Origin: Nocardioides caldifontis
GTDB lineage: Bacteria; Actinomycetota; Actinomycetes; Propionibacteriales; Nocardioidaceae
DNA: 64,000 nucleotides
Direction of reading: 5' to 3'
Assembly: GCF_008087345.1 (NCBI RefSeq)
Contig: NZ_ML701737.1
Span: forward strand, 124,001 to 188,000
A program made the position numbers and the translations under genes. The notes under the pieces were generated by a model, which worked only from the letters and a program-made list of their open reading frames with translations, ran no database searches and was not told where the DNA came from. This document shows positions 46,957 to 49,675 of this stretch, one piece after another. Positions within the stretch are counted from its first letter, which is position 1. Each line of letters opens with the position of its first letter.

Positions 46957-49101
46957 TCACCCGCTCGTCAGGACGACCAGCTGCTGGGTGGCCCGCGTCA
47001 TGGCGACGTACCTGTCGACGGCCCCTTCGATGCCCTCCCCGAGCTGCTGGGGGTCGACGAGCACCACCAGGTCGAACTCCAGCCCCTTGGCCAGCACCGG
47101 GGTCAACGCCCTGACGCGCGGGGTGGCTGGGCGGACCGGAGCGCCGATGACGCACGCCGTCCCCTCGGGGTGCGTGGCCAGCCACCGCTCGAGCACCGCG
47201 TCGAGGTCGGCGGCGGAGCCGTGCTCGACGGGGAGACCACCGGTCCGGACCGACCGGGGCACGTTGGCGTCCGGCAGCTCCGCTCGGATCACCGGTTCCG
47301 CCTCGGCCATCACCTCGGCCGGCGTCCGGTAGTTGATGCTCAACGACGCCAGCGCGACCCGCTCCAGCCCGACCCGTCGGAGCCGCTCCTCCCAGGACTC
47401 GGTGAACCCGTGGCGGGCCTGGGCACGGTCTCCCACGACGGTGAAGCTCCTCGACGGGCAGCGCGCCAGGAGCATCTGCCACTCGGCATCGGTCAGCTCC
47501 TGCGCCTCGTCGACGACGACGTGCGCGAACGGGCCGGCGAGCCGGTCGGGAGCCGCCGCGGGCACCGCGGAGTCGTCCACCAGCGCCCCACGCAGGTCCT
47601 CGACCCGCAGCATCGACATCACCTGCATCTCCGAGTCGTCGGCCGCGACCAGGTGGTCGACGACCCGGCTCATCTCCTCCTGCTGCGCGGCGAGAGCTGC
47701 CTCGTGCCGCCGCCTGCGTCGCGGCACCTCCGGGTCCCCGAGCCGCAACCGCGCCGCGTCCAGCAGCGGCAGGTCGGAGAACGTCCACGCCGAGGGCTCG
47801 TCCCTCTGCAGCAGCCGCACCTCGTCGGGGGCCAGCCACGGGGCGCACCGCCGCAGGTACGCCGGCACCGACCACAGGTCGCCGACGACGTCGGTCGCCT
47901 CGAGCATCGGCCAGGCCCTGGTGAGGGCAGTGAACAGCTCGCGGTTGCGGCCCAAGGCGGCACGGACCTGCTCCGGGGGCCCCTCGTCGTCGTGCTTGTC
48001 CACGAGGATGTCGAGCAGCGCGTCCCACACCTGGTCGCGGGCCTCGTTGTGGGGTGTGCCGGGCTCCGGCGCCGCGAACGCCTCCGCCCAGTCGGAGGGG
48101 CTGAGCCAGACGTCGCCCCACAGCGTCTCGACGACCATCCCTTCCGTCGGAGGCTCCTCGTAGAGCGCGACGGCCGGCTCGATCGCCGCGACCATCGCCG
48201 CGGACGCCTTCAGCCGGGCAACTCGCGGATCGGGCTCCTCAACAGCCTCGCGCCCCTCCGGCACCAGGTCCCGGAGCGTGCAAGGCTGCACCCCCTCCTC
48301 CCCCAGGCTCGGCAGGACGTCCCCGACGTAGGCGAGGTAGGGCTGGTGCGGGCCGACGAACAGCACGCCGCCGCGCCGGTGGCCGAGCCGCGGGTCCGAG
48401 TAGAGGAGGTACGCCGCGCGGTGCAGAGCCACCACGGTCTTGCCGGTGCCCGGGCCGCCGTCGACCACGAGCGCTCCGCGTGAACCGGCACGGATGATCG
48501 CGTCCTGGTCGGCCTGGATGGTGGCCAGCACGTCCCGCATCCGCGGCGACCGGCTGGCGCCCAGGCTGGCGATGAAGGCGGACTGGTCGTCGAGGGCGGC
48601 GCCGTGGTCGACCCCGTCCTCGGCGAACACCTCGTCCCAGTAGTCGGTGATCCGGCCCGCCGTCCACCTGTAGCGACGCCGGCTCGCCAGCCCCATCGGG
48701 TTCCCGTGCGTGGCACCGAAGAACGGCTCGGCGGCCGGCGAACGCCAGTCGACCAGGAGCGGAGTGCCGTCGCCGTCCTTCAGGCCGAGACGCCCGACGT
48801 ACACCGGGTCGCCGTCGGCGGGCACCATCCGCCCCAGGCACAGGTCGAGCTCGAAGCGGCGGAGCGTGCGCAGCCGGGCACTGAGCCGGTGCACCTCCAG
48901 GTCCCGGTCCAGTGCCTGCTGACCGGAGCCGCCCGGAGCGCGGCGCGCCTCGACGAGCCGCTCGGTGAGCTCGGCGGTCGTCCGCCCCAGGGTCTCGGCG
49001 ATCCGCTCGAACTGGCGCTCGTCGTGCGCGACGAGCGCCGGGTCGGCCTTGGCGGTCAGGTGGTCCGGGAGGGCGAAGACGCTGGTGCACGCGGGGTTCA
49101 A
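46957..49101 (-). CDS. helR: HelR-type RNA polymerase recycling ATPase (HelD family)
   Basis: The 714-residue UvrD/HelD-like protein has FALPDHLTAKADPALVAHDE and RRAPGGSGQQALDRDLEVHR at its N-terminus, the coiled-coil region of HelR proteins. DGGPGTGKTVVALHRAAYLL is Walker A; HVVVDEAQELTDAEWQMLLA is Walker B; FTVVGDRAQARHGF and LSINYRTPAEVMAEAEPVIR are later helicase motifs. HelR displaces rifamycin from RNA polymerase and recycles stalled enzyme. A rifamycin-associated element lies 56 nt upstream. The start is TTG at 49101; no strong ribosome-binding site is visible. Confidence 0.88.
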   Translation of the reverse strand: MNPACTSVFALPDHLTAKADPALVAHDERQFERIAETLGRTTAELTERLVEARRAPGGSGQQALDRDLEVHRLSARLRTLRRFELDLCLGRMVPADGDPVYVGRLGLKDGDGTPLLVDWRSPAAEPFFGATHGNPMGLASRRRYRWTAGRITDYWDEVFAEDGVDHGAALDDQSAFIASLGASRSPRMRDVLATIQADQDAIIRAGSRGALVVDGGPGTGKTVVALHRAAYLLYSDPRLGHRRGGVLFVGPHQPYLAYVGDVLPSLGEEGVQPCTLRDLVPEGREAVEEPDPRVARLKASAAMVAAIEPAVALYEEPPTEGMVVETLWGDVWLSPSDWAEAFAAPEPGTPHNEARDQVWDALLDILVDKHDDEGPPEQVRAALGRNRELFTALTRAWPMLEATDVVGDLWSVPAYLRRCAPWLAPDEVRLLQRDEPSAWTFSDLPLLDAARLRLGDPEVPRRRRRHEAALAAQQEEMSRVVDHLVAADDSEMQVMSMLRVEDLRGALVDDSAVPAAAPDRLAGPFAHVVVDEAQELTDAEWQMLLARCPSRSFTVVGDRAQARHGFTESWEERLRRVGLERVALASLSINYRTPAEVMAEAEPVIRAELPDANVPRSVRTGGLPVEHGSAADLDAVLERWLATHPEGTACVIGAPVRPATPRVRALTPVLAKGLEFDLVVLVDPQQLGEGIEGAVDRYVAMTRATQQLVVLTSG

Positions 49102-49141
49102 CGAGGGGCTCCGATCGCACGACGACGTGGGTAGCCCGGAG

Positions 49142-49147
49142 AGTCTG
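49142..49147 (-). promoter_or_regulatory. Possible -10 of helR
   Basis: CAGACT on the minus strand lies 10 nt downstream of the RAE, placing the -35 region inside the element. Confidence 0.35.
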
Positions 49148-49157
49148 AGCCACGACG

Positions 49158-49177
49158 GGGGTCTTGCCGCAAGCCCC
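49158..49177 (-). promoter_or_regulatory. Rifamycin-associated element (RAE)
   Basis: On the minus strand the sequence is GGGG, CTTGCGGCAAG, A, CCCC. The core CTTGCGGCAAG is the inverted repeat known as the RAE, found upstream of rifamycin-resistance genes in actinomycetes. It differs from the consensus as I remember it at one base. It is oriented towards and 56 nt upstream of helR. Confidence 0.85.
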
Positions 49178-49196
49178 GGGGTGCGCTATACGTTGA

Positions 49197-49225
49197 GAAC
49201 GGAGAGGGCATCGCCCTCTCCGTTC
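49197..49225. terminator. 13-bp hairpin between the VOC gene and helR
   Basis: GAACGGAGAGGGC (49197-49209) and GCCCTCTCCGTTC (49213-49225) form a perfect stem with a 3-nt loop. It is 88 nt past the stop of the VOC-protein gene and upstream of the RAE, so it should insulate helR from read-through. There is no T run on the minus strand. Confidence 0.7.
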
Positions 49226-49312
49226 GTCTTCCGCCGCGACGAACCCGGCTCACCCCGTCGACGAGGGCTCCCCTGCCACTTCTTGTCGTGCTGACCTGAA
49301 CCCTCGCGCTGC

Positions 49313-49669
49313 TCAGCTCAGGCAGAGGCAGAACGGGTGCCCCGCCGGGTCGAGGAAGACCCGGAAGGTCGTGCCCGGCTGGTGCTCGTGCTTGGTCGCT
49401 CCCAGCTCGACCACGGCCGCCTCGGCGGTGTCGAGGTCGTCGACGACGACGTCGAGGTGCATCTGCTGCGGCACCTGCTGCCCCGGCCACTCGGGCGCGC
49501 GATAGTCGTCGACCTTCTGGAACGACAGGCACTGCCCCTGCTCGGACTTGACGTCGATCCAGTCGTCGCCGGGCTCGACCTTCCAGTCGAGCAGCGCCGC
49601 GTAGAACTCCGCGAGCGGAGCCGGGTCAGGGCAGTCGAGGACGGTGGTGGGATAGCGGGCGATGGCCAT
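49313..49669 (-). CDS. VOC/glyoxalase-like protein
   Basis: The 118-residue protein begins MAIARYPTTVLDCPDPAPLA, then FYAALLDWKVEPGDDWIDVK, QQMHLDVVVDDLDTAEAAVV and a closing VFLDPAGHPFCLC. These are the paired beta-alpha-beta-beta-beta units of the vicinal oxygen chelate fold. The His in MHLDVVV and the GHPFCLC segment are the usual metal or substrate region. Substrate unknown. TACTGT 6 nt before the ATG supports a leaderless start. Confidence 0.87.
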   Translation of the reverse strand: MAIARYPTTVLDCPDPAPLAEFYAALLDWKVEPGDDWIDVKSEQGQCLSFQKVDDYRAPEWPGQQVPQQMHLDVVVDDLDTAEAAVVELGATKHEHQPGTTFRVFLDPAGHPFCLCLS

Positions 49670-49675
49670 GGCGGG

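Follow-up and report, generated by a model that had tools for sequence, protein, structure and literature searches.

Introduction

HelR frees rifamycin-blocked polymerase, as published for actinobacteria other than the one considered here; its hallmarks are a primary channel loop that displaces rifamycin and a raised tolerance to the drug. The rifamycin-associated element (RAE) of actinomycetes appears, in the available excerpts of earlier work, as a 19-bp palindrome upstream of helR and of genes for rifamycin-inactivating enzymes, lying over the -35 of the gene promoter (PMC10719064, PMC8655204, PMC12802891, PMC10194278)—the site described here has the same features. In RNA-seq of M. smegmatis, homologues of rox, helR (MSMEG_2174), and arr are among the most rifampin-induced genes (available part of PMC6529629). 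Rifamycin sensing through the RAE in actinomycetes was called unresolved in 2026 (excerpt of PMC12802891). An RAE before helR is an already-known arrangement, to which Nocardioides caldifontis adds one case.

Divergent promoters share one operator in TetR-type systems, and in the RAE module a palindrome likewise lies between two predicted divergent promoters; the module differs in that the RNA made outward from it would, at about half of the sites, amount to a short hairpin, and in that no recurrent regulator gene adjoins it. The helD/pps dual-promoter rifampicin alarm of B. subtilis, as given in the available part of PMC12802891, resembles the module in having a helD-type gene and a better promoter that opposes a weaker one. 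That alarm responds to rifampicin, as the module would, and its induction is lost in a rifampicin-resistant polymerase background. The B. subtilis promoters converge, with 39 bp from one start site to the other, both sites counted, whereas those of the RAE module would diverge and overlap; its elements face away from a shared centre, in place of a convergent arrangement with room for both polymerases.

Here we describe the RAE of a 64,000-nt stretch of N. caldifontis DNA (the window) and compare it with sites from other genomes. Relative to the published RAE, the module adds a position midway between opposed -10-like elements, a hairpin at about half of the sites, and a centre that may vary (CTTG-N3-CAAG); the predicted outward promoter and its in-register hairpin would be the addition over what is known. 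An outward promoter at the RAE was not met in the RAE/HelR literature searched, in the excerpts available, including PMC12802891, PMC10719064, PMC8655204, PMC6529629, PMC7283461, PMC10194278, and PMC13246000; the primary RAE papers lay outside that scope, and an earlier description is possible. Our main reading, to which we give a probability of about 0.6, is that the RAE would be the centre of a two-way promoter whose outward arm keeps helR low and which a putative RAE-binding activator switches. Such a symmetric promoter with an outward hairpin would make the question of RAE sensing concretely and cheaply testable.

Site sample

The pool of sites comprised 30 loci from a search of the phylum (only a part of the phylum matches entered), 30 from a search of the family, 40 stretches fetched by place, the source genome of the window (G000) and further searched loci, and at least 120 named stretches that a scan across species genomes supplied. 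The 19-mer GGGNCTTGCNGCAAGNCCC was the sole criterion for taking up a site, so that the flanks were free to vary; identical 121-bp contexts and mismatched 19-mers were excluded, leaving 211 distinct exact sites. Gene families were assigned at 149 of the 211 by the initial gene caller and at 203 once five clusters, each represented by no more than 8 members, had been used as tblastn queries. Two of the 203 lie too close to the end of their stretch and were dropped from the analyses of 201 sites. Positions are given in a frame in which the palindrome centre is 0 and the resistance gene lies to the right. The names rgt, arr, and rph are our presumptive assignments, made from the sequences in the light of the literature on these families.

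The helR locus

The original prediction had placed an RAE 56 nt before helR, a CAGACT hexamer 10 nt past it, and the -35 region inside the element. The match is exact, the spacing to the TTG start (49101) and the hexamer are as described (Table 1), and the overlap of the RAE with the predicted -35 of the helR promoter is supported both by the sequence and by relatives. The identity of the downstream gene is likewise supported: its product scores 1267.6 bits against the NCBIfam model NF041254 (motor_HelR), above the curated cut-off of 750. Among solved structures the top match is the HelD entry 6yxu (E 1.2e-106), which we take to be the M. smegmatis protein.

Table 1. Coordinates of features around the RAE in the window (positions count from the first letter of the window)
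Feature	Position	Strand	Details
helR	46957..49101	-	714 aa; TTG start; start codon assigned mechanically
Predicted helR RNA start	near 49135-49137	-	start of the promoter with CAGACT
helR-side -10-like CAGACT	49142..49147	-	+21..+26 from RAE centre; 10 nt past the RAE
RAE palindrome	49158..49177	-	exact GGGGCTTGCGGCAAGACCCC; centre 49168; two head-to-head TTG (-35-like) motifs inside
19-mer GGGNCTTGCNGCAAGNCCC	49159..49177		exact match
Outward -10-like TACGTT	49189..49194	+	-21..-26 from RAE centre
Predicted first bases of outward RNA, GG	49201..49202	+	7 nt beyond the outward -10
Hairpin	49197..49225	+	13 bp in DNA (arms 49197-49209 and 49213-49225, 3-nt loop); 9 bp (49201-49221) for an RNA starting at 49201
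Moderately U-rich tail GTTCGTCTTC	49222..49231	+	behind the hairpin, in the outward direction
Small ORF	49318..49671	-	coded on the same strand as helR, upstream of the module; VOC-like by eye

A 13-bp hairpin upstream of the element had also been predicted, as a block to read-through into helR. The hairpin itself stands, as a perfect inverted repeat; the role assigned to it finds no support, since its U-rich side points away from helR and it keeps a fixed register with the predicted outward start. Termination in both directions is possible, but a hairpin that guards helR against read-through was rejected on these grounds. In an RNA starting at the predicted outward position, pairing would begin with the very first nucleotide (-20.7 kcal/mol, z -3.5), with the DNA repeat extending 4 bp past this hairpin on each side and GUUCGUCUUC directly behind it. 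A single terminator-like site was found in 48800-49600, on the + strand and pointing away from helR. The hairpin is more likely to terminate a short RNA of about 30 nt made in the outward direction than to block read-through.

An Rfam search over 48900-49500, at E up to 1, returned four matches below the gathering score, none covering the RAE or the hairpin; a known RNA family was rejected on this result. The outward RNA would head towards the 3' end of the small ORF, which has no Pfam match at E 0.001.

Specificity and spread of the RAE

With up to 3 mismatches allowed, the window holds 2 RAE matches against a mean of 7.8 in shuffles; the window is GC-rich and this count is at chance level, so degenerate matches carry no meaning. 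This is the one point in favour of taking the RAE as a chance motif in GC-rich DNA, a reading to which we give practically no weight: the exact 19-mer occurs in 50 of 149 genomes of the same family, against 1 of 149 for a reversed-pattern control, and 203 of the 211 exact sites precede genes of rifamycin-resistance families by tblastn (helR 93, rox 59, rgt 20, arr 16, rph 15). A looser pattern, GGGGCTTGCNGCAAGNCCCC with up to 1 mismatch, was found in 42 of 396 genomes of a phylum sample and its reversed control in 10 of 396. Five of the eight unassigned sites lie near a stretch end (L088, L105, L114, L123, L142), L058 (Paraburkholderia) is without the module and chance-like, and the other two (L146 and L193) come from the same family as the window. 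When the closest gene facing away from each site, at no more than 500 nt, is considered, just these five resistance families recur, with no recurrent regulator cluster; regulator genes adjoining RAEs were rejected as a common partner for this reason.

Within the family, 52 of 149 genomes have a helR gene above the model cut-off, and 45 of these 52 genes carry the module (up to 1 mismatch, same strand, at most 400 bp upstream). Five more have both -10-like elements and a changed centre—CTTGAAACAAG twice, CTTGAATCAAG once, and CTTGTTTCAAG twice. In one genome (G398) the module lies about 1.3 kb upstream of helR; in another (G468) none was found in the roughly 0.5 kb upstream stretch, and this 1 of the 52 counts against the two-way reading. 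The changed-centre RAEs (L258-L261, L263) read CTTG-N3-CAAG with N3 being AAA, AAT, or TTT. A looser search found the module in 65 of 149 family genomes, against 3 for controls; of the 68 modules that it returned, 63 retain the GGG and CCC flanks, which lie outside the search pattern. Changed centres and kept flanks lead us to a general RAE form, GGGGCTTG-N3-CAAG-N-CCCC.

The module was also met outside the class of the window, including in records labelled Chloroflexi (L061, L083). In Minicystis rosea, presumably a myxobacterium, a rox-type gene has an RAE with the outward -10-like element and without the gene-side one (L155); this RAE-rox pair looks to have been transferred from actinobacteria.

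A probable two-way promoter module

At 199 of the 203 assigned sites two opposed -10-like elements flank the palindrome at exactly equal distances, one gene-ward at +21..+26 and one outward at -21..-26; the full pair is missing at L040, L070, L148, and L155. The gene-side element has the form cAgAAT (A2 1.0, T6 0.99, A4 0.94, A5 0.87), with C at its first position in a fraction of 0.87 and T in 0.01. The outward element, on the other strand, is TAnnnT (T1 0.99, A2 1.0, T6 1.0), most commonly TACGTT (60 of 201), TAAGTT (27), or TACCTT (22). As judged from sequence only, the outward -10 is thus closer to the -10 consensus than the gene-side one, with T1 at 0.99 versus 0.01.

Both elements are nearly invariant. 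Scanning all offsets, nAnnnT occurs at +21..+26 in 198 of 201 sites, against a median of 3 at the remaining offsets, and outward-strand TAnnnT at -21..-26 in 199 of 201, against a median of 0; a further AnnnT lies at -32..-28 in 111 of the 201, which weighs against the two-way reading. After thinning to less than 60% flank identity, both elements are present in 61 of 65 sites. Between non-homologous gene families, letter identity is 0.70 at -26..-21 and 0.80 at +21..+26, where 0.28 is expected by chance; elsewhere in -41..+40 outside the palindrome it is 0.46-0.58, and beyond -42 and +41 it falls to 0.26-0.33. Because identity drops to chance outside these limits, it is a module of about 80 bp, and not the surrounding DNA, that has been kept or moved.

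The direction of the two elements needs separate evidence: AnnnT is its own complement, so that nAnnnT is met equally on the opposite strand, one base over, and A2 and T6 cannot give direction. The outward direction of the left element rests on T1, present in 199 of 201 sites against 13 of 201 for the reverse reading. On the right, the gene-ward direction rests on A4 and A5, and also on promoter 2 of helD, which has been mapped in M. smegmatis and has its -35 over the RAE in the available part of PMC10719064. The predicted starts of the two promoters are about 66 nt apart and face outward from the shared centre. The evidence for a two-way architecture is strong at the level of conserved letters, and the RAE is very probably the centre of a two-way promoter module of about 80 bp with two opposed -10-like elements. 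Such a module would be a more specific signature of rifamycin-response genes than the palindrome alone.

Two other assignments were rejected. Each -10 sits 19 nt from its TTG, and this spacing alone might suggest a MerR-type promoter; in MerR-type geometry, however, the palindrome centre lies in the promoter spacer, and here it lies at the -35. The excerpt of PMC10719064 that was available has, for M. smegmatis, another promoter in the sense direction, P1, lying some 20 bp before the RAE, and is silent on an outward promoter. The published position of P1 is close to the predicted outward start, which counts against the two-way model. Read as the -10 of P1, the upstream element would give a start near -15, which does not fit the published distance of about 20 bp, and the 13 sites with TAnnnT on the gene-ward strand speak against this reading.

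A CTGCGGAAA-type stretch at about +43..+59 from the RAE centre recurs in the predicted 5' leaders of many rgt, rox, and rph sites.

The predicted outward RNA

Counting from the outward -10, the seventh and eighth nt past it are G in fractions of 0.95 and 0.89 of the 201 sites. Hairpins scoring at least 6.5 were found near this predicted start at 94 of the 201, and 59 of the 94 end exactly there. Swapping arms between sites gave 20-34 hairpins per 201 over 20 permutations; there are 71 different 3' arms, and the excess over the permuted counts means that the pairing goes beyond shared sequence. Behind the hairpin, the first three bases are U in fractions of 0.68, 0.69, and 0.62 on the outward strand; the gene strand is far poorer in U there (0.06, 0.29, and 0.63). 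By family, the hairpin is found at helR 47/93, rox 22/58, rgt 12/19, rph 12/15, and arr 1/16; with 107 of 201 sites lacking a good one, including 15 of the 16 arr sites, it is common and not universal. The pattern suggests that the second arm, which faces away from the gene, would often yield a tiny hairpin RNA; such a short RNA may sit unnoticed in published RNA data.

These data bear on a one-way scheme, in which a dimeric activator on the RAE serves the helR promoter alone, the upstream AnnnT belongs to a larger operator, and the hairpin terminates neighbouring transcription. The scheme is the published view—in the available parts of PMC10719064 and PMC12802891, a factor binds the RAE, a 19-bp palindrome that covers the -35 of promoter 2—and also has in its favour that the invariant A/T at +-22 and +-26 are themselves palindromic. 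We nevertheless consider it quite unlikely, given that the upstream element has the T1 of a -10 in 199 of 201 sites and is followed, as far on as is usual for a start, by GG, and that the hairpins keep register with their U-rich tails away from the gene.

How the module may switch

In the two-way reading, the RNA polymerase footprints on the two promoters would overlap, so both could not be occupied together and use of one would exclude the other. Without drug, polymerase would prefer the outward promoter and yield a short self-terminating RNA, and this outward initiation would keep helR low; for the claim that it does hold helR low we see the chances as even. Rifamycin would tip the balance towards the helR promoter, and HelR would then release rifamycin-blocked polymerase. 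The conserved better outward -10, the weakened gene -10, and the frequent hairpin end suggest that starting RNA outward has a benefit of its own, the simplest being that it would keep the gene promoter low in the absence of drug.

The switching could be done by a widely conserved, dimeric RAE-binding protein, acting as an activator rather than a repressor. We favour such a putative protein because the GGG/CCC flanks are conserved and because deletion of half the RAE ends induction: in a study cited by PMC10719064, as summarized in the available excerpt, loss of half the RAE abolished induction, although that review itself notes that the deletion also took the -35. On this evidence a protein probably does the switching, and is a likelier agent than sensing by RNA polymerase alone.

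Sensing by the polymerase would need no dedicated protein: two unequal, overlapping promoters would respond directly to rifamycin-blocked polymerase. The RAE would then be the heart of a self-contained rifamycin sensor and not (or not only) an operator, with the outward promoter cycling polymerase through a short self-terminating RNA. We hold this to be possible and rather doubtful. It has a parallel in the B. subtilis rifampicin alarm, where the opposing promoter is the stronger (PMC12802891, in the part available), and would fit the conserved inequality of the two -10s, the lack of a recurring regulator gene at the closest outward-facing position (up to 500 nt), the module outside the window's class (including the Chloroflexi-labelled L061 and L083), and the outward element standing alone before rox in Minicystis rosea. 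However, a polymerase blocked by rifamycin should stay where it is, at the outward promoter, and thereby go on shutting out use of the gene promoter, and sigma contacts do not explain the invariant GGGG/CCCC flanks. When the two opposed B. subtilis promoters were moved into overlap, induction was abolished, according to the same excerpt (PMC12802891); this speaks against switching by polymerase exclusion alone. If sensing by the polymerase were true, the polymerase itself would report the drug, the module would be to actinobacteria, in divergent form, what the convergent alarm is to B. subtilis, and the sensor would be portable, standing before five unrelated resistance gene families.

A second RAE and related genes in the genome

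A scan of the source genome (33 contigs, 4.8 Mb, 99.65% complete) that allowed up to 3 mismatches gave two RAE sites, one before helR and one before a rox-type gene on contig C1. The original prediction had proposed a scan for further RAEs, and this is the one more that it yields; the rox site had been missed, as had the outward promoter element. The top NCBIfam model for the rox-type product is rifampin monooxygenase (777.5 bits, slightly under the cut-off of 800), and its nearest solved relative is the rifampin monooxygenase 5vqb (E 7e-190). Inducible rifamycin tolerance of the strain, through release (HelR) and inactivation (Rox), is a fair inference from these genes and their RAEs.

The second RAE (G000:C1, around 716800; L257 1944-3159) lies between rox and a divergent gene for a PcaDC-like alpha/beta hydrolase-decarboxylase (NF051488 352.9 bits, cut-off 390; start codon chosen manually), into which its outward promoter would read; no hairpin was seen by eye at this RAE. 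The PcaDC-like gene was rejected as a recurrent RAE partner, with one weak match in another locus that does not adjoin the RAE there.

Contig C1 also has a second HelD-like gene (112-115 kb; L007 1486-3684), whose 732-aa product is 37% identical to the HelR of the window and falls under the cut-off of all four HelR/HelD models that it matched; the genome scan at up to 3 mismatches found no RAE near it. The rifampicin-binding stretch of rpoB (L267), read from the sequence over 29 residues, keeps what we take to be D516, H526, and S531 in E. coli numbering, with changes at 518 and 522.
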